From positions 42,480-106,479 of the forward strand of contig VMDM01000010.1 in NCBI GenBank assembly GCA_008080815.1: a stretch of DNA of 64,000 bases, written 5' to 3'. Shown here in pieces: positions 52,099 to 62,138 of this stretch (position 1 is the first letter of the stretch; every line of letters starts with the position of its first letter). The notes beneath the pieces were generated by a model. It searched no databases and was not told where the DNA came from. It saw only the letters and a program-made list of their open reading frames with translations. A program made the translations under genes and the position numbers. The DNA comes from Candidatus Nitrosopumilus sp. GTDB lineage: Archaea > Thermoproteota > Nitrososphaeria > Nitrososphaerales > Nitrosopumilaceae.

Positions 52099-52611
52099 CT
52101 ATTCTAAATCTGCAATTATATCGCCTTTTGCAACAGTTGCAGTTGGTTTGATTTTTAGATTTTTAACAACACCATCTTTGTGTGCCTTTACAGCAACTTG
52201 CATTTTCATTGATTCCAAGGTACAAACAACATCTCCTTTCTTAACTGAATCACCTTCATTGACAGCAATAGATACTACTTTTCCAGGAATTTGACTCTTT
52301 AATGCTGTTTGAACTCCACCAGAGCCAACACCACCAGAATTTTTGTAAACAATTTTATCAAAATGAGTATTCATGTTTAAGGTAATTGGAACATTGTCAA
52401 TAACCATATTCATTTCATTTGTGAGAGTTGAAAGATATTTTGCTTTATGATATTTTTGATCCAAAATAAATTCAATTCCTTTTGAATCCATTGTTAAAAT
52501 TCTTAGTTGATGTTCTCTGTCATCAATTTTAATCACATAATCATTATTTCCATTATTCTCGATAATTTTTCCATCAAAATTTTTCTCAATATCAGAAATC
52601 TTGTAATCCAT
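52099..52611 (-). CDS. Biotin carboxyl carrier protein of acetyl/propionyl-CoA carboxylase
   Basis: 170 residues. The C-terminal biotinyl domain carries CTLESMKMQVAV, with the biotinylated Lys in ESMKM (usually EAMKM); the QIPGKVVSIAVNEGDSVKKGD lead-in is standard. The N-terminal 90 residues (DREHQLRILTMDSKGIEFIL) form the linker/BT-like domain seen in acyl-CoA carboxylases. It carries the carboxyl group between the two enzyme subunits. Third gene of the pccB-accC-BCCP operon. Confidence 0.95.
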   Translation of the reverse strand: MDYKISDIEKNFDGKIIENNGNNDYVIKIDDREHQLRILTMDSKGIEFILDQKYHKAKYLSTLTNEMNMVIDNVPITLNMNTHFDKIVYKNSGGVGSGGVQTALKSQIPGKVVSIAVNEGDSVKKGDVVCTLESMKMQVAVKAHKDGVVKNLKIKPTATVAKGDIIADLE

Positions 52612-52616
52612 TTTTA

Positions 52617-54113
52617 TCAGTCCAATTTATTTTTCCAGTTACTATTTGATGTTTCATTAGTTTGAGTTCGGTTCTTGAAGAATTCAGAATGAATAATTGC
52701 TGCTGCTACTGCTGCTTCGCTTTTTTCAACTTTTTCAGTTTTTAGGTCTTCAGTTAATTTTTCAATCATATCGTATCGTTTTAGAAAGTCTGTAGATAGA
52801 TTTCCACTTTTATATTCTTCAGAATTTAGAATGGTCTTGTATAATGGAATTGAAGTTTCAACACCTTGAATATAGAAATCATTTAGAGCAGTAAGCATTT
52901 TAGTTCTTGATTCATCAAATGTTGGCCCCCAGGTACAGAGTTTTGCCATCAATGAGTCATAAAATGGGGAAACAGTACAACCAGGATATAGATAAGTATC
53001 ACATCGTACATTAGGACCACTAGGAATTGTCACATCAGGGACTGGACCAGTTGATGGGGCAAAATCCAAAAAGGTATCTTCAGCATTGATTCTACATTCG
53101 ATTGCATATCCATTCATTTTTAGATCACTTTGTTTGAATGGTAATGTTTCACCATTAGCAATATCAAGTTGTAATTTTACAAAGTCTAAACCAGAGACCA
53201 TTTCAGAAATTGGGTGTTCTACTTGCAATCTAGCATTAATTTCAATGAAATAAAACTCACCATCATCAGAACGTAAGAATTCTGCGGTTCCGAGATTGGT
53301 ATAATCTACAGCCTCTGCTGCTTTTACAACCAATTCTCCAACTCTATCTCGAGTTTCTTGATCAACTACTGGAGAAGGAGTCTGTTCAATTAATTTTTGA
53401 TTTCTTCTTTGAATTGAGCATTCTCTTTCAAAAATATGAACAGCATTTCCATGTTTATCTCTACACATTTGATACTCAATATGTCTGGTTTTTTCTAAGA
53501 ATTTTTCAACAATAATTGCAGACTTTCCAACAGCTGAAATTGATTCACTTGTTACAGTTTCAAAACCTTCCTTCAATTCTTTATCATTAGTTACAAGTCG
53601 GATTCCTCTTCCACCTCCACCATAAACAGATTTCAAAAGTACTGGATACTTAATCTCGTTTGCAATCTTCAAGGCTTCTTCTACATCTTTAACTAAACCA
53701 GGACTGCCAGGAACTGTAGGTACTTGAGCTTTAAGCATAGCATCCTTACATCTCATTTTATCACCACATAGATTCATTGAATCTGCAGATGGTCCAATGA
53801 AATTAATTTTATTTTTTTCACATAATCTTGCAAAGTCATCATTTTCAGATAAGAAACCATATCCAGGGTGTACAGCATCGGCACCTGAGGATAACATTAC
53901 TTCCAGTATTTTTTCTTGATTTAGATATGATTTTGCAGGAGCAGCTTCACCAATATGATATGCTTCAGTTGCTTTTTTGACATGTAATGAATTGTAATCT
54001 TCATCAGAATAAACTGCTACAGTTTTAATTCCTAATGCAGTACATGTCCTGATAACACGTAAAGCAATTTCTCCTCTGTTTGCAATAAGAACTTTCTCAA
54101 TCATTTTAATCAC
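52617..54113 (-). CDS. accC: Biotin carboxylase subunit
   Basis: 498 residues. EKVLIANRGEIALRVIRTC, VHPGYGFLSENDDFA, VPTVPGSPG, LLKSVYGGGGRGIRLV (ATP grasp loop), RECSIQRRNQKLIEQTPSP, EFYFIEINARLQVEHPISEMV and YAIECRINAED are all in place. It fixes bicarbonate onto biotin with ATP. Together with its partners it forms the acetyl/propionyl-CoA carboxylase of the thaumarchaeal 3-hydroxypropionate/4-hydroxybutyrate cycle. It overlaps pccB by 4 nt and is followed by the BCCP gene. The start GTG/ATG codons overlap the pccB stop. Confidence 0.96.
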   Translation of the reverse strand: MIKMIEKVLIANRGEIALRVIRTCTALGIKTVAVYSDEDYNSLHVKKATEAYHIGEAAPAKSYLNQEKILEVMLSSGADAVHPGYGFLSENDDFARLCEKNKINFIGPSADSMNLCGDKMRCKDAMLKAQVPTVPGSPGLVKDVEEALKIANEIKYPVLLKSVYGGGGRGIRLVTNDKELKEGFETVTSESISAVGKSAIIVEKFLEKTRHIEYQMCRDKHGNAVHIFERECSIQRRNQKLIEQTPSPVVDQETRDRVGELVVKAAEAVDYTNLGTAEFLRSDDGEFYFIEINARLQVEHPISEMVSGLDFVKLQLDIANGETLPFKQSDLKMNGYAIECRINAEDTFLDFAPSTGPVPDVTIPSGPNVRCDTYLYPGCTVSPFYDSLMAKLCTWGPTFDESRTKMLTALNDFYIQGVETSIPLYKTILNSEEYKSGNLSTDFLKRYDMIEKLTEDLKTEKVEKSEAAVAAAIIHSEFFKNRTQTNETSNSNWKNKLD

Positions 54114-55657
54114 AAATTGATGTTTCCATGTTTTCTAGGAAGTTGTTTTTCCCTTTTGTTTGCAAGCATTTTAAGAGCTTTAATTAACATTGGACGGGTT
54201 TCGGCTGGATTAATTACATTATCAACAGTACCATGAGAAGCTGCAACATATGGGTTCTCAAATTTTTCAGTAAACTCAGCCATTAGTTTTTTCTTTAGTC
54301 CCTCCGGATCATCTGATGAATCTAATTCTTTTCTATTCATAATTTTAACAGCTGCCTCTCCACCCAAAACTGCACATCTGGCAGTTGGCCATGCATAATT
54401 GATATCAGTTCTAAGATTTTTACTTCCCATTGCAATGTATGCTCCACCATAAGCCTTACCTATTACTAGAGTGATTCGTGGAACAGTTGCCTCACAATAT
54501 GCGTAAAGCAATTTGCTTCCATGTCTAATAATTCCATTATGTTCTTGATTAGAACCTGGCATATATCCGGGAGTATCAACAAGAGTGACAATTGGGATGT
54601 TAAATGCATCACAGAATCGAATGAAGCGAGCTGCTTTGTTTGAAGAATCAATATCTAATGCTCCAGCTAGATGCATTGGATTATTTGCAACAATGCCAAC
54701 AACTTGCCCATCCATTCTTGCATATCCTACAACAATATTTGGAGCAAATAATTCATGAACTTCAAAGAATTCATGATTATCAACAATAGAATTGATTATC
54801 TCTTTCATATCATATGGTTGAAGAGGATTTTCTGGAATTACATTAATTAAATTATTATCTAATCGGTTAGGGTCATCATCATTTTTTATTTTTGATGGTT
54901 CTTCAGAATTATTTTGAGGAAGATAAGAAATTAATTTTTTAATATTGTCCATACATTCGTATTCATTTTGAGCCACAAAATGTGCTACACCACTTTTTGA
55001 ACCATGAGTCATTGCACCACCAAGATCTTCAAATGATATTTCCTCACCTAGTACAGTCTTTACAACATCAGGACCAGTAACAAACATGGTTCCTGCCTTT
55101 TCAACCATTACTACAAAGTCAGTCATTGCAGGAGAATATACAGAACCTCCGGCAGAAGGTCCAATGCTGGCAGTAATTTGAGGAATAACACCAGAAGCTA
55201 GTTGATTATGATAAAATATGTCAGCAAATCCATCTAGACTCATAATCCCTTCTTGAATTCGGGCACCACCAGAATCCATAATTCCAATAATGGGACAACC
55301 GGTTCTAACTGCATGATCCATTAATTTTGTAATCTTTTTAGCTCCCATCTGGCTCAAAGTGCCACCTAAAACAGTAAAATCATATGCAAAGACAAAGATT
55401 TGACGACCAGAAACTGTTCCATATCCGCCAACTACACCATCAGTGAAAAATTTCTTTTTCTGCATATCATATTCATGATAGTGATGAGTTACCATGGGAT
55501 CAATTTCAGTAAAGGAACCTTCATCTAAAAGTAGAGAAATTCTTTCACGAGCAGTTAATTTTCCTTTTTCATGTTGTGCTTTGATGCGTTCATCACCACC
55601 ACCCTGTTGTGAAATATGTGATTTTTTTGAAAAATTTTCGATCTTTTCTGAATGCAT
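54110..55657 (-). CDS. pccB: Acyl-CoA carboxyltransferase subunit (acetyl/propionyl-CoA)
   Basis: 515 residues from ATG 55657 (TTG 55660 is adjacent). Both crotonase-like halves are present: TARERISLLLDEGSFTEID, GGTLSQMGAKKITKLMDHA and IMDSGGARIQEGIMSLDGF in the first; NPMHLAGALDIDSSNKAARF and VTLVDTPGYMPGSNQEHNG with YAYCEATVPRITLVIGKAYGG in the second. It transfers the carboxyl group to acetyl-CoA or propionyl-CoA. A TATA-like TAAATTAATATATG at 55678-55691 gives a leaderless start. First gene of the operon. Confidence 0.96.
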   Translation of the reverse strand: MHSEKIENFSKKSHISQQGGGDERIKAQHEKGKLTARERISLLLDEGSFTEIDPMVTHHYHEYDMQKKKFFTDGVVGGYGTVSGRQIFVFAYDFTVLGGTLSQMGAKKITKLMDHAVRTGCPIIGIMDSGGARIQEGIMSLDGFADIFYHNQLASGVIPQITASIGPSAGGSVYSPAMTDFVVMVEKAGTMFVTGPDVVKTVLGEEISFEDLGGAMTHGSKSGVAHFVAQNEYECMDNIKKLISYLPQNNSEEPSKIKNDDDPNRLDNNLINVIPENPLQPYDMKEIINSIVDNHEFFEVHELFAPNIVVGYARMDGQVVGIVANNPMHLAGALDIDSSNKAARFIRFCDAFNIPIVTLVDTPGYMPGSNQEHNGIIRHGSKLLYAYCEATVPRITLVIGKAYGGAYIAMGSKNLRTDINYAWPTARCAVLGGEAAVKIMNRKELDSSDDPEGLKKKLMAEFTEKFENPYVAASHGTVDNVINPAETRPMLIKALKMLANKREKQLPRKHGNINL

Positions 55658-55677
55658 CAAGAACTAAATATCGATTT

Positions 55678-55730: not shown

Positions 55731-56045
55731 TTAAGATGAATTAAAAAAGTGGAATTTTTTACCCATAGATTGTTGAAAATTTTCAAATGCCTGATTCGAT
55801 TCGATACAAGACTTGCAAATACATGTTTGGGACACATTTTCAATATCACAACTTTCAAGAAACTCACAATTGGTGCATCCTGCAGGTTTTCCACAAACTC
55901 CACAAATTAGTTCATTTGTTGCAGAGCATTTTTCATGTTTTACGCCATTTCCTTTGGACCACAAACCAAATTCGTTAATCTCAATTTTTTGATTACATAC
56001 AATGCAAGTACCAGGAAATTTCATAGAGATTTTAATCCAACTCAT
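55731..56045 (-). CDS. Multi-CxxC zinc-ribbon protein, 104 aa
   Basis: 104 residues with about 12 cysteines: TCIVCNQKIEINEFGLW, KHEKCSATNELICGVCGKPAGCTNCEFLES, then TCICKSCIE. The pairs could bind two or three zinc ions. No family recognised. It begins where rfcL ends (4 nt overlap) and is co-directional, so it may be translated from the rfcL message. The end FENFQQSMGKKFHFFNSS is hydrophobic-aromatic. The role is unknown; a replication or DNA-binding accessory role would be a guess from context. Confidence 0.65.
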   Translation of the reverse strand: MSWIKISMKFPGTCIVCNQKIEINEFGLWSKGNGVKHEKCSATNELICGVCGKPAGCTNCEFLESCDIENVSQTCICKSCIESNQAFENFQQSMGKKFHFFNSS

Positions 56046-57211
56046 TTCAAATTTTCAATCTCCTTTTCAACAATTTCCCCATACATTTCTGTGAATTCAA
56101 AGTTTAACGACTTGTTTTTAATACACTGTAACATGTAAGGCATACACAGTGTAACAAAAGAGCTTGAAGACAAATGTAATTTTTGTGCCATGAAGGATGA
56201 GAAAGATTTGATTTTTGCACCATCCCATCTTATTCTGTTAAGAGTTGGCCAGGATAGATTGTATTGATTATATCTAATATTGAGTTCAGTTTGATAGAGT
56301 TTCAAAAGAATGTCATTAAGGTAACGTAATAAACGCCAATTTTGTGTTTTGATAATTTTTCCATAAAGCATATCAGCTTCAGAAATAATTTGCAACTTTT
56401 CAGATAAAATTTGAGAATCCAAATTACTGGTGATTATACTAGAGTAAAATGCATTAATTTTTTCTCTAGGATCAATTTGCATAGAGTACAAAATCAATCT
56501 AGCTTCATCCAAGGTTTTTGATTTAAAAAATGAATTAATTCCATTTTCCACATCAATTTTTTCAGTTGTCATTTCTGTTGGAGGATTGAATCCAGTTACG
56601 AAAGACTGAGCAAGATTAATGAGTGAACGAATATCTCCTTTAGATTTTTCCAAAATTTTAATTAATGAACCAGGACTAATCTTTGAATTTTCTTTTTTCA
56701 GAATATTTTGTATGTAAATTCGTAACAGTCTTGGAGGAATTTTTTTAAAATGTATAGTTTTGACTGCTTTTTTTAGGGATTTCATTTTATCTGAATCATC
56801 ATAATTGGCAGCTAGAATTATTGGAACACTTGGCTCTTTCAGAATATCAACTAGGGCAGATAAACCACCAAAATCACTTCTTCCATGAATTCCATCTACT
56901 TCATCAACAAAAATCATTGGGGTTCCTAGAACACTCACATTTGACAATACGGGATTTAGAATTTCATTGATACGAGATTTACTGCGCACATCACTAGCAT
57001 TCAATCCAATCATATCATATCCAAATTGTTTTGAAACCAAAAATGCCATAGTAGTTTTTCCAATACCCGGAGGGCCAACCATCAAAAGGGGTTTGGAACC
57101 TTTTTTCCATTTTGAGAACCAGTTAATGATTTCTGAACGAGATTCTTCGTTTCCAATCATATCAGAAATTTTCTGAGGTCGGTATTTTTCAGACCACATC
57201 AATTTGATCAC
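56042..57211 (-). CDS. rfcL: Replication factor C large subunit
   Basis: 389 residues. EKYRPQKISDMIGNEESR, Walker A GPPGIGKTTMAFLVSK, Walker B PMIFVDEVDGIHGRSDFGGL and the RFC signature region PSVPIILAANYDDSDKMKS are clear. It loads the PCNA sliding clamp together with RfcS. Start: GTG 57211 overlaps the upstream stop as GTGA; ATG 57199 (MWSEKYRP) is the family-typical alternative. The C-terminus lacks the PCNA-binding PIP motif I can recognise (it ends EKEIENLK). The small subunit is not here. Confidence 0.95.
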   Translation of the reverse strand: MIKLMWSEKYRPQKISDMIGNEESRSEIINWFSKWKKGSKPLLMVGPPGIGKTTMAFLVSKQFGYDMIGLNASDVRSKSRINEILNPVLSNVSVLGTPMIFVDEVDGIHGRSDFGGLSALVDILKEPSVPIILAANYDDSDKMKSLKKAVKTIHFKKIPPRLLRIYIQNILKKENSKISPGSLIKILEKSKGDIRSLINLAQSFVTGFNPPTEMTTEKIDVENGINSFFKSKTLDEARLILYSMQIDPREKINAFYSSIITSNLDSQILSEKLQIISEADMLYGKIIKTQNWRLLRYLNDILLKLYQTELNIRYNQYNLSWPTLNRIRWDGAKIKSFSSFMAQKLHLSSSSFVTLCMPYMLQCIKNKSLNFEFTEMYGEIVEKEIENLK

Positions 57212-58335
57212 TTTCTAGGAAGATTATTGTTCAAATCTGACCAGATATTTGCATCTTGTAATCTCTTATACCAAAATTGATTATAATGCTCCACAGTAAG
57301 AAATAGAAATTCTAAAAATTTTGTATGTGAAAAATTATCAGGTAGTTTTTCTAGAGCGTCTCTTGCTTCACTCAAATAAGATTCACTATGTTTCATTGTT
57401 TCTTCAAATCCTAGTTTTGCATCATTCATTTTTAGTGAATAGAATAATGGCCAAGAAGGAATTTTTGCAGCTTTATCCCTAATACTATCTTCAATTTCAT
57501 TTCCACATCCAACAGATTCAGCAGCTTTTGCCATTCCGGTGTAAAAAATATCAGCTAAAGGTGCGCGATTTAAGGCCATGTTCCTACCAGCAGTTCCCAT
57601 AACCGAACGATATTTTTTGTAGCTTTCAATTAATTCTTGTTCAGTAATTTCTGTGGGTTTATCTTTTAACTTTGTATCAAGATATTGACCAATTCTTGCT
57701 TGTTTGAAACCCTCTTCAAATTCTTTGAGTACATCTTCACCCCCTTTTGAAATTTTTTCTCTAGCAAGTTTCAAAATATACGGATTCATTAATTTGTAAT
57801 CGTCTAAATATTCCAAGTCTTCATCTTTATCTACAATTCTATCCATTGGTTCACTAAGATCAATTGCTATAATGTGACCATCAACAATATCTTCTCTCAT
57901 TGTGGAATTTTTATCATCTTTGAAATAATCAGTAGAAGCATCAAAAAGACCATTAAAAACAGGAAATGTCATTTTTACAAAATTAGAATTTAAAATTCTA
58001 AGTACTCTGTCATGTAATATATCAAAATCTTGTAGTTTGGACTTTATAGGCTCAATTTCAGATGCCTTCAAAATGATTTCCGTGGAACCTACTTCTTCTG
58101 CAAATTCCTGTTGTGTAGTATTAGGAGATTGATCATTATTGATTTGTTCAAATAGATTTTTTGCAAATCTTTGAGCAAATTTTGGAAAAGCATCTTCAGC
58201 TTCCTCTTTGTAGTGATTAAATAATTTGAATCCCTGAGATTTGAATAAACCCTGTTTGATGATTTGTTTTCCAGGCTTTGTTCCCATCAAAGCACTTTTA
58301 CTAAAAACTGATTCGTCTTTTCCACTCACAACCAA
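57208..58335 (-). CDS. Unknown protein, 375 aa, coupled to rfcL
   Basis: 375 residues, soluble, mixed helical, no signal peptide, no membrane span. Segments such as FPVFNGLFDASTDYF, KLAREKISKGGEDVLKEF, YRSVMGTAGRNMALNRA and YSLKMNDAKLGFEETMKHSE do not match a family I know. It precedes rfcL and overlaps it by 4 nt (GTGA), so expression is coupled to clamp-loader synthesis. Length and codon use argue for a real conserved gene. A thaumarchaeal-specific accessory to replication is possible but not shown. Start is ATG/GTG near 58335. Confidence 0.7.
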   Translation of the reverse strand: MVVSGKDESVFSKSALMGTKPGKQIIKQGLFKSQGFKLFNHYKEEAEDAFPKFAQRFAKNLFEQINNDQSPNTTQQEFAEEVGSTEIILKASEIEPIKSKLQDFDILHDRVLRILNSNFVKMTFPVFNGLFDASTDYFKDDKNSTMREDIVDGHIIAIDLSEPMDRIVDKDEDLEYLDDYKLMNPYILKLAREKISKGGEDVLKEFEEGFKQARIGQYLDTKLKDKPTEITEQELIESYKKYRSVMGTAGRNMALNRAPLADIFYTGMAKAAESVGCGNEIEDSIRDKAAKIPSWPLFYSLKMNDAKLGFEETMKHSESYLSEARDALEKLPDNFSHTKFLEFLFLTVEHYNQFWYKRLQDANIWSDLNNNLPRK

Positions 58336-59303: not shown

Positions 59304-60146
59304 ATGGTATCTGAGACAAAAGCTAAAGTTGTCTATAGAGAATTATTAAAAGAAGATCTTGTAATTATCAGATTACTACCTGAAACAGGAATGCCAAAAT
59401 ATCATACAGGTCAATTCCTCACTATAGGTGTTCCAATTCCTAGTGAAAAAAAAATTGTAAGAAGAGCATATTCAATTGCTTCGCATGCAGAAAATAGAGA
59501 TTATTTTGAATTTGTAATCAGATGGGTTAGAAAACCTTTACCTGGAAGAGTAACAACCGAATTATTTTACTGTAGTGTAGGTGATACAGTATGGTTAGGA
59601 GATCCTAGTGGTACAGCTTTACAAATTAGTGATGTATTACCAAATGGAAAGAAGGATAATAGAAGAATAATTTGTGTTGGAGGAGGAACAGGAATTGCTC
59701 CATTTGTTGCTTTTGCAAAACATTTTCACGATACAAATGATACAAGAGAAGTTGTGGTCTTGCATGGTGCAAGTTATGTTGATGAATTAAGTTACAAAAG
59801 ATTATTCACTGATATGGAAAATGAAAGTGAAAAAATAGGTAGAGACAAATGGAATTTCAGATACAGAGCCGCAATTAGTAGACCAAAAGAATTTTTCAAT
59901 AGATCATGGAATGGACACGTAGGTAGAGTTGAATCATTCTTTGCACCTGATAAAAAAACAGGGCTTTCACCAGTAGAAGAGATGGTTGGAGAAAAAATCA
60001 CTCCAGAAAATACAATTATCTACATTTGTGGATATCAAGGAACAATAGATGGTGTTTTAGATTCATTGGGACCAAAAGGCTTTGTAACTGAACATGATAA
60101 AAAATCAGATGGAAGTTTTGGTATCAAATACGAATCATATGGTTAG
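59304..60146 (+). CDS. fpr: Ferredoxin-NADP(+) reductase (FNR type)
   Basis: 280 residues. FAD site RRAYSIASHAENRDYFEFVIRW (RxYS with flavin stacking), GDTVWLGDPSGTAL, then the NAD(P) site RIICVGGGTGIAPFVAFAKHF and HGASYVDELSYKR, IYICGYQGTIDGVLDSLG. The C-terminus ends YESYG, as in bacterial Fpr. It exchanges electrons between ferredoxin or flavodoxin and NADP(H). With complex I lacking NuoEFG, such a reductase could connect ferredoxin pools to NADPH. Single gene with a TATA-rich upstream region. Confidence 0.95.
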   Translation: MVSETKAKVVYRELLKEDLVIIRLLPETGMPKYHTGQFLTIGVPIPSEKKIVRRAYSIASHAENRDYFEFVIRWVRKPLPGRVTTELFYCSVGDTVWLGDPSGTALQISDVLPNGKKDNRRIICVGGGTGIAPFVAFAKHFHDTNDTREVVVLHGASYVDELSYKRLFTDMENESEKIGRDKWNFRYRAAISRPKEFFNRSWNGHVGRVESFFAPDKKTGLSPVEEMVGEKITPENTIIYICGYQGTIDGVLDSLGPKGFVTEHDKKSDGSFGIKYESYG

Positions 60147-60200: not shown

Positions 60201-60368
60201 ATGACAGTGTTCAAATGCAGCGACTATGGATTTGAATGTGATTTTAAATCTGAGGGTGAAGTTGAACAGGTCATTGAAGAATTTAGAATCCACACTGAAG
60301 AAGAACACGGTATAGAATATTCTAAAGAAGTTATTATGCAAATGTTGTTAAGAAAACAAGGACTCTAA
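60201..60368 (+). CDS. DUF1059 small protein, 55 aa
   Basis: 55 residues, ATG 60201 to TAA 60366-60368. MTVFKCSDYGFECDFKSEGE followed by VIEEFRIHTEEEHGIEY fits the DUF1059 pattern (C-x3-G-x2-C near the start and a later E-H-G-I). The family is small, widespread and uncharacterised. It is transcribed from its own TATA box at leaderless distance, and its last 4 nt overlap the hemA stop (60365). No neighbour gives a clear hint of function. Confidence 0.8.
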   Translation: MTVFKCSDYGFECDFKSEGEVEQVIEEFRIHTEEEHGIEYSKEVIMQMLLRKQGL

Positions 60369-61438
60369 TCGATTTTTTCCATTCTCAATGAAAGAACAGG
60401 TAATTCTTTTTCAATGATTTTTTCAACTGCAGGGACAATATCTTTTCTTGCCTTTGCATTCTCTTCATAAATTTCATCAATTTGGTCTCTAAAGAGTAGT
60501 TTGATTCCAGGAAGTGAAGTAACATCTTCAGCAACAGCTCTTGGTTGAGAAATATCTAAAATCAAGGTTCCTTTCTTTTTATCTTCCATTTTTAATTTAA
60601 TTCGTTCATGATCAATCATGAAATAGTCAGCTGTCGTTGCAACAAAAATTATATCATATTTATCAAAATTTGCAAAAACATCTTCAAAGTTTACTGGAGT
60701 TCCACCAATTACTTTAGAAAAACCTTCAGCCCTATCTATAGTTCTACTTGCTAAATCAAATGGAATATCTTTTTTATTGAGATTTTTTCCAATCATTGCT
60801 GCCAAGACACCAGTTCCTAACAGCAAGATTTTCTTCTTTGCATCGATACCAGCTTTTTCATCAACAATATCTACAGAAATATCACCAAGAGAAATTACAT
60901 CCTTGGAAATACCTGTTGCAGAACGTATTTTTTCAGAAATTCTAATGCTGGTTTCAAATAATTTATTTAAAATCTTTCCAGAATTTCCAGCATTTTTTGA
61001 ACGCTGAAGTGCATCCACAATCTCATCATAGACTTCTTGTTTCCCAACTACAAAAGAATCTACACCGGACGCAAGTCTTAACAAGTGCATATAGACATCA
61101 TTTCCTTTGTAAACTTCAATTGTTTGATCAAAATGATCAATATCGATTTGTTCCAATTCAGACAATGTGACCCATGTATCTTTAATTTTATTCAAGATGA
61201 GACTTTTACCTTCATCTCGTCTTGCATCAGGAGAATCAATTTCTTGTGTATTACTAACTGTGAAAATTTCAACTCTACTAGCAGTTTGAATAATAATGCA
61301 TTCATCAACACCTTCAATTTTTTTAAATTCTTCAGAAGCAGCATTAACATCTTTGAATGAAAACTTTGATAATACATGAATTGGAACATTGTTGAAAGTT
61401 ACACGAGTGTTCATTAAATCAAATTTTACTTTAGCCAT
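60365..61438 (-). CDS. hemA: Glutamyl-tRNA reductase-like protein lacking the usual catalytic cysteine
   Basis: 357 residues. NADPH domain KKILLLGTGVLAAMIGKNL, the conserved ISQPRAVAEDVTSLPGIKLL block and C-terminal dimerisation helices match HemA. The catalytic region reads CIIIQTASRVEIFTV where the family has STCNRxE, so the nucleophilic Cys is replaced by A53; the only Cys in the protein is C47, six residues earlier. The LGExQI motif also reads VGKQEV. It would reduce Glu-tRNA to glutamate-1-semialdehyde, the first step to haem, sirohaem and cobalamin. Downstream of the coiled-coil gene (10 nt gap). No other haem gene adjacent. Confidence 0.88.
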   Translation of the reverse strand: MAKVKFDLMNTRVTFNNVPIHVLSKFSFKDVNAASEEFKKIEGVDECIIIQTASRVEIFTVSNTQEIDSPDARRDEGKSLILNKIKDTWVTLSELEQIDIDHFDQTIEVYKGNDVYMHLLRLASGVDSFVVGKQEVYDEIVDALQRSKNAGNSGKILNKLFETSIRISEKIRSATGISKDVISLGDISVDIVDEKAGIDAKKKILLLGTGVLAAMIGKNLNKKDIPFDLASRTIDRAEGFSKVIGGTPVNFEDVFANFDKYDIIFVATTADYFMIDHERIKLKMEDKKKGTLILDISQPRAVAEDVTSLPGIKLLFRDQIDEIYEENAKARKDIVPAVEKIIEKELPVLSLRMEKID

Positions 61439-61448
61439 TTAATCACCA

Positions 61449-62138
61449 TTAAGATTTAATTTTATCTCTTCCACCTTTAGCGGTTCTAAAAATATTCATT
61501 CCAATGTAATAATTTTCATGTAAAGATTCTAGATAGGTTATTTTATCTTCTGCATCTTTGATTTGTTTTTCAGTTGAATCTGAAGTACCTTTCAATTTTT
61601 CTAATTGAGTTTTTGTTTCATCTAAGAAGGCACCAACACCTCTTTCATAGTTAGATAATCCTTCAAATTCAGGGCTAAGAACATGTTGAGGAATATATCT
61701 AGGAGTTTGATCAGCTGGTGTTTCAGCTTTTGCAGTAAGAGATTCTTGTTGCTCAGATGTTAATACAGGTCTCAAAAAGCGGTCATTCTTGTCCAACCAA
61801 AATTCAGGTTCACCCATTTCTCTTCTAAAAATTTCCTCACCAGCTCTTTTGAATGTATAAGCTGGTGCTTTTGCTGCTTGTGCTTTTACTTCAGCAGCGA
61901 TTGCTTTGTATTCTTCTTCAGCAGCTGCTTCTGCTTCAGCCTTCAATGCAGCAGCCTTTGCTAATGCTTCTTGTGCTGCTTTTGCTGCATCTTCGGCTGC
62001 TTTTGCTGCATCTTCTGCCTTTTTAGATACCAAGTTTTCTTTTTCAGTACTAGTTTCTGATTCTGAAGCATTTTCGGTAGATTCAGTTTCTGAGGTTTTA
62101 GTTTCAATTTCTGCATCTGTTTGTTCTTCAGACATCAA
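61449..62138 (-). CDS. Ala/Glu-rich coiled-coil protein, unknown
   Basis: 229 residues. The N-terminus is Ser/Thr/Glu-rich (TETKTSETESTENASESE-like), followed by an alanine-rich coiled coil of about 70 residues with repeated EDAAKAAEDAAKAAQEAL. The second half is more complex (YTFKRAGEEIFRREMGEPEF, KNDRFLRPVLTSEQQES) and ends with a second coiled coil. No membrane span or signal. It is upstream of hemA by 10 nt and co-directional. No family recognised; such proteins are often scaffolds or stress proteins, but here this is inference. Confidence 0.65.
   Translation of the reverse strand: MMSEEQTDAEIETKTSETESTENASESETSTEKENLVSKKAEDAAKAAEDAAKAAQEALAKAAALKAEAEAAAEEEYKAIAAEVKAQAAKAPAYTFKRAGEEIFRREMGEPEFWLDKNDRFLRPVLTSEQQESLTAKAETPADQTPRYIPQHVLSPEFEGLSNYERGVGAFLDETKTQLEKLKGTSDSTEKQIKDAEDKITYLESLHENYYIGMNIFRTAKGGRDKIKS

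Follow-up and report, generated by a model that had tools for sequence, protein, structure and literature searches.

The 64,000-nucleotide stretch of Candidatus Nitrosopumilus DNA analysed here (the window) encodes what appears, from comparison with its relatives, to be a protein with the fold of glutamyl-tRNA reductase (GluTR) but without the GluTR active site, tied to a carboxylase-linked partner protein designated c1L. The gene, referred to as hemA2 (60365..61438, minus strand), was delineated by open reading frame and Pfam profiles, and specifies a GluTR paralogue of 357 residues. Matches above the gathering score were obtained with GlutR_N (PF05201; 102.9 bits) and Shikimate_DH (PF01488; 66.4 bits), and the dimerisation domain (GlutR_dimer, PF00745) was absent. 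Indeed, the protein ends approximately 80 residues short of its canonical sister (418 aa), which has PF00745, such that the C-terminal block described in the first-pass annotation as kept is missing. HemA2 scored 194.2 bits against the GluTR equivalog model TIGR01035, which is below the cut-off of 209.55. The short GluTR model NF001909 (length 338), which we take to represent the chlamydial enzyme, resembles the window protein in its shortness and in being without the long C-terminal domain, but the match is weak (40.4 bits against a cut-off of 478).

Residues 51-57 (61268..61288, minus strand), as established by reading of the frame and alignment, are QTASRVE, with Ala53 at the nucleophile position, in agreement with the original claim that the catalytic Cys is missing. 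Reading of the whole protein likewise bore out the claims that Cys47 (61298..61300, minus strand) is its sole Cys and that the LGExQI block is altered, the latter to VGKQEV. According to the available portions of two sources, the GluTR Cys forms a thioester that is then reduced by NADPH, and the third domain makes the dimer (PMC7242693, PMC6399207). Since the catalytic Cys is missing, HemA2 is likely to be unable to reduce Glu-tRNA, and so to provide no heme precursor. A literature search at the level of titles and abstracts found nothing on a Cys-less or second thaumarchaeal GluTR. Sources that name HemA2 use "glutamyl-tRNA reductase", so that the gene counted in heme and B12 models of these archaea may be the wrong one.

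The canonical sister, HemA1, is specified by a second GlutR_N match in the window genome (1.07 Mb, 87% complete), located on contig 7 (L001 1474-2730). The two proteins are 41% identical. HemA1 has a QTCNR motif in addition to PF00745, and its gene is flanked on one side by a Met8-like (siroheme-synthase-like) gene, with NAD_binding_7 above and Sirohm_synth_M below cut-off, and on the other by hemB (PF00490), whereas window HemA2 is without the motif, the domain and this setting. The genome also has hemL (548 bits against a cut-off of 527.3). Since a canonical hemA is present in the same genome, the window gene is a paralogue and not the organism's GluTR. Hence, among the three options offered in the first-pass annotation, that of a paralogue with another function gains support, and the notion of a Cys-less cellular GluTR falls. 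A second hemL-like aminotransferase was noted on contig 27 of the same genome (L191), with a score of 328.9 bits that is below the TIGR00713 cut-off of 527.3.

The extent of active site degeneration was examined by comparing HemA2 with canonical and outgroup HemA proteins, the aligned Methanopyrus kandleri GluTR chain being 1gpj. Identical proteins were merged for the residue counts and a cut copy (L159) was left out. The 67 HemA2 proteins counted at the motif comprise 65 from the alignment plus two genus g128 proteins (L079 and L080) in which the motif (QNAFR, with Ala) was read from the upstream frame; only ATG, GTG and TTG were accepted as starts, hence its position outside the called frames. 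In both g128 genes (L079 1163-2503, L080 3974-5326) there is no ATG, GTG or TTG before the motif, and the frame is open upstream with a CTG at the expected start. The contrast of residues between the two groups was drawn from thinned sets (32 of 67 HemA2 and 33 of 40 others).

Cys53, Asn54 and Glu133 are each present in 41/41 canonical and outgroup proteins and in 0/67 HemA2. Position 53 is occupied instead by Ala (45), Ser (16), Thr (2), Gln (2), His (1) or Gly (1), a spread indicating that the nucleophile has not been replaced by any single other residue. His118, which is also present in 41/41 of the comparison set, is found in 41 of the 67 HemA2 proteins and lost from 26. With further conserved residues of the canonical site also varying, the earlier suggestion that the same reaction proceeds by another route is unlikely. 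Residues Gln51, Arg55, Glu57 and Gly132 are retained, and the QTxxRxE frame and GxG motif, like the two N-terminal domains, are common to HemA2 and GluTR. HemA2 proteins differ further from GluTR in having a 15-residue insertion, and have invariant residues of their own in 67/67 cases, namely Asp71 and Arg73 within the insertion, His102, Asp104, Gln105 and Asp271, the last of which is Pro in 40/41 canonical and outgroup proteins; these indicate that HemA2 is not merely decaying. The NADPH block had been described as kept, and this holds for Gly208 and Gly210, which are invariant in HemA2, but not for Arg232 of the SRT motif, which is Lys, Met or Gln in 30/67. The functional roles attached to positions here (active-site His, Glu recognition, 2'-phosphate Arg) are our assumption.

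HemA2 is under purifying selection, with omega values of 0.046-0.233 in 17 pairs, as compared with 0.034-0.065 in seven HemA1 pairs (eight were tried, one of which gave no dS). GlutR_dimer was detected in nine of the 16 HemA2 proteins scanned, all of them long (413-424 aa), the seven without it being short (356-374 aa); the g128 proteins have the domain. On trees the short proteins fall in some four places, being found in the deep g9 lineage, in g127, in one g10 genome and in the crown that includes the window, and the domain appears to have been lost about four times. Repeated loss of this kind fits a role for HemA2 that does not involve the dimerisation domain.

HemA2 is carried by at least 133 of the 200 Nitrosopumilaceae genomes searched, the remainder having one HemA, fragments or none. 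The HemA2 proteins form a single clade (support 100/100) nested within the HemA1 of the family, beside that of the deep g9 lineage. Monophyly of the family's HemA1 was rejected with a tree of 42 hand-picked rows (p-AU 0.0001, or 0.002 without g5 and g8), and HemA2 would therefore derive from inside Nitrosopumilaceae HemA1. A larger HemA tree was made with 104 rows thinned to 82, five prefixes having been dropped first. In the HemA tree the Nitrosopumilus-named row falls among g1, and the Ca. Nitrosopelagicus-named rows with part of g9, so that g1 would correspond to Nitrosopumilus and that part of g9 to Ca. Nitrosopelagicus. Only some species of genus g2 have HemA2, and these proteins are placed with those of g137/g138 and not where g2 HemA1 falls, which suggests transfer between genera. 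Second hemA copies in archaea outside the family, represented by five proteins (L184-L188) from four of the seven genomes with two or more matches, all keep the Cys (HTCNR, QTCNR or QTCH); thus loss of the Cys is seen in HemA2 only.

The gene 10 nt upstream of hemA2 encodes c1L (61449..62138, minus strand), a 229-residue protein with no Pfam match which, on the evidence of the reading frame and locus comparison, is the long form of a carboxylase-linked small protein. Alignment distinguished a core, from approximately residue 126 to 229 (61452..61763, minus strand), that is shared with short c1 proteins elsewhere in the ammonia-oxidizing archaea, and a segment at residues 103-115, IFRREMGEPEFWL (61794..61832, minus strand), found only in HemA2-linked c1. 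Among the loci fetched, c1L is directly upstream of 68/68 distinct hemA2 genes, mostly within about 20 nt; this count considers all open reading frames, greedy choice of frames having given 32/34 loci. In a set of 200 genomes, which are related, so that a Fisher value cannot be taken at face value, 130 have both HemA2 and c1L, three HemA2 only, one c1L only and 66 neither. The three HemA2-only genomes are at most 60% complete and the c1L-only genome is 68% complete. Presence of c1L was called per genome by how far the match extends N-terminally, and the totals are lower bounds (at least 133 for HemA2 and at least 131 for c1L). Two genomes were excluded, G306 and G328, in which the match is to a low-complexity N-terminus; locus L125, from G306, is without the EPEF segment.

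Elsewhere in the ammonia-oxidizing archaea, families f2 and f3 among them, the c1 core occupies the C-terminal portion of a shorter protein (67-193 residues). This short form, c1S, which has no Pfam match and corresponds in its core to the C-terminal half of c1L, differs from c1L in having neither the IFxR..EPEF segment, which is seen in none of the 20 short proteins aligned, nor an adjoining hemA2. Short c1 is directly upstream of the carboxyltransferase gene of an acyl-CoA carboxylase in 18/20 loci, 16 being recognised by pattern and two (L143 and L149) by reading; of the others, L125 is at a contig end, and at L127 no carboxyltransferase gene was found in the remaining 1.3 kb. Three of the 20 loci (L121, L129 and L154) are from HemA2-bearing g2 genomes, which have short c1 at the carboxylase genes plus c1L at hemA2. 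By virtue of its position, short c1 is a candidate for an unrecognised carboxylase subunit. The g2 long c1 was placed apart from g2 short c1, albeit in a weak tree, and the tree of the c1 core (95 columns) as a whole is poorly resolved and requires at least four changes between long and short; it does not establish a single origin of long c1. A fold search with c1L returned no match at E ≤ 0.001.

The window itself has genes for the carboxyltransferase (PF01039; 54110..55660), biotin carboxylase (52617..54113) and biotin carboxyl carrier protein (52099..52611) subunits of an acyl-CoA carboxylase, all on the minus strand and assigned by profile and locus reading. Some 5-6 kb separate the c1L-hemA2 block from the carboxyltransferase gene in this cluster (52099-55660). 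Neither of two conserved genes neighbouring the carboxylase block, at 57208-58335 (375 aa) and 55731-56045 (104 aa, Cys-rich), matches Pfam. In seven loci from g10, g127, g128 and g136 the gene order is c1L, hemA2, c2 (reversed), carboxyltransferase and biotin carboxylase. Because c1L and the carboxyltransferase gene of the window are about 6 kb apart, the case for a carboxylase link is drawn from relatives, and any part that c1 plays at the carboxylase may have been lost from the long form. The same carboxylase genes occur in relatives without HemA2, which indicates that the pathway can do without it.

The window copy of c2, c2a (59304..60146, plus strand), was identified by Pfam, tree and homology as a 280-residue FNR-like NAD(P)H/FAD flavoprotein, linked to HemA2 and paralogous to an FNR-like gene found throughout the family. 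Among proteins of solved structure, ferredoxin-NADP reductases are closest to c2 in sequence. Over 5 kb, c2 is present in 34/38 hemA2 loci, the loci without it being L009, L072, L073 and L081. In the deep g9 lineage and one g10 genome the c1L-hemA2 pair occupies the site at which a HemA2-less relative has c2. One locus (L091 2225-6048, genome G317) has c2 on both flanks of the pair, and looks like a duplication intermediate. A third full-length FNR-like c2 homologue was noted on contig 44 of the window genome (L181); it has 59% identity and a long branch, and may represent a separate paralogue or belong to a foreign contig.

Structure models were examined also. The c1L-HemA2 pair was modelled with AlphaFold2 as a single chain by reading through the intergenic stops, using 69 alignment rows, the paired rows comprising 29 of 31 in-frame pairs. 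Block means for the HemA2 part were 71-94, except at its start and insertion (44-53), and a fold search with modelled HemA2 ranked the GluTRs of M. kandleri (1gpj) and Arabidopsis first. In the read-through chain the c1L-specific segment was disordered (residues 23-60 with pLDDT below 50; block means 29-42), whereas the same segment reached approximately 51-58 when c1L was modelled alone. The models thus give no support to docking of the segment on HemA2, its confidence being lower in the read-through chain than in c1L alone. This speaks against simple docking, although genuine contacts can escape a model of this kind, built as one chain from a shallow alignment.

The interpretation that we tentatively favour, with rather less than even confidence, is that a former GluTR has been recruited, via c1L, as a nucleotide-binding accessory or sensor of the CO2-fixing acyl-CoA carboxylase. 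A GluTR paralogue has lost its Cys and with it, presumably, GluTR activity; it would probably still bind a dinucleotide, given that the GxG motif is kept while the putative 2'-phosphate Arg is relaxed. HemA2 would contact c1L, c1 would contact the carboxylase, and c2a could serve as redox partner. HemA2 may then affect the carboxylase, which in these organisms would serve CO2 fixation, as a helper or redox sensor. The supporting steps that have been observed are paralogy, loss of the Cys, purifying selection, the pairing with c1L, and the encoding of the c1 core with carboxylase genes elsewhere. If the carboxylase link is true, an enzyme of tetrapyrrole synthesis has been reused to control archaeal CO2 fixation; the HemA2-c1L pair is a concrete and cheap complex with which to test it.

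An unlikely but credible alternative is that HemA2 is, together with c2a, a reductase of some other substrate, with a new active site formed around Arg55, His102, Asp104 and Asp271. The polar residues that are newly invariant in all 67 HemA2 proteins would fit such a site, as would purifying selection. Full-length c2 is present in two or more copies in 5/5 HemA2 genomes as opposed to one copy in 12/13 others, the HemA2-linked copy being the second, and HemA2-linked c2 proteins group together in the c2 tree, the label changing at least three times. However, two deep g9 genomes (G332 and G385) have HemA2 with a single c2 match, no family match indicates a substrate, and the putative Arg for the NADPH 2'-phosphate differs in 30 of the 67 proteins.

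Regulation of an active enzyme is a common fate of inactive paralogues, and HemA2 could in principle bind HemA1, HemL or Glu-tRNA and so throttle tetrapyrrole synthesis. The GluTR fold and the retention of the dimerisation domain in the long proteins (9/16 scanned) would be consistent with such a function. Set against these are the approximately fourfold loss of that domain and the fact that c1L, in 68/68 cases, is what precedes hemA2; moreover, no hem gene was recognised beside hemA2 in the neighbourhoods as read, as distinct from a family-by-family scan for hem genes. Control of the true GluTR is accordingly regarded as distinctly unlikely.

It is improbable that HemA2 is the missing malonyl-CoA or succinyl-CoA reductase, a CoA thioester being a substrate that would need no enzyme Cys. 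Judging from the accessible part of one source, reduction of a thioester intermediate to a semialdehyde is what GluTR normally does (PMC7242693). Sections of two others state, respectively, that in N. maritimus both reductase genes had yet to be identified in 2018 (PMC6038301) and that the same held for its malonyl-CoA reductase gene (PMC6964070); in addition, several genera have hemA2 inside the carboxylase cluster or close to it. Conversely, HemA2 is missing from relatives to which the same cycle is ascribed, the cycle having been inferred, according to the portion available, for all sequenced ammonia-oxidizing archaea (PMC8287830). HemA2-less genomes do not have an extra semialdehyde dehydrogenase as a stand-in, in so far as, across 25 genomes, PF02774 matches numbered two in each and PF00171 matches ranged from 0 to 2 in 12 HemA2 genomes and from 0 to 3 in 13 others. 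A swap for the missing reductase was rejected because these counts are not complementary to HemA2. The more elaborate version, for which we hold out little hope, is of a Cys-free CoA-thioester reductase docked on the carboxylase via c1L, which would reduce malonyl-CoA (or succinyl-CoA further on) in place and would have passed between genera in a block of three genes that includes a flavoprotein of its own. Were this true, HemA2 would be the reductase still missing from the dark CO2-fixation cycle of the ocean.

That HemA2 is still a GluTR, with Cys47 or another group as nucleophile, is very improbable. Cys47 is near to the active site in sequence and is kept in 63 of the 65 HemA2 proteins aligned there, and its takeover of the catalytic function had been put forward in the first-pass annotation. 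However, alignment indicates that it is ancestral, being present in 33/41 canonical and outgroup HemA proteins, all of which have the catalytic Cys, and it is replaced by Val in two HemA2 proteins; Cys47 was consequently rejected as a replacement nucleophile. Variation at Glu133, Asn54 and His118, and the presence of the canonical hemA in the genome, argue in the same direction. Finally, errors in sequencing or assembly and pseudogene decay can be given practically no weight: none of the 67 HemA2 proteins read keeps the Cys, omega is well below 1 in 17/17 HemA2 pairs, and the 120 database matches listed, which include the window protein and range from 69 to 100% identity, agree without exception in having Ala (119) or Gly (1) at the nucleophile position.
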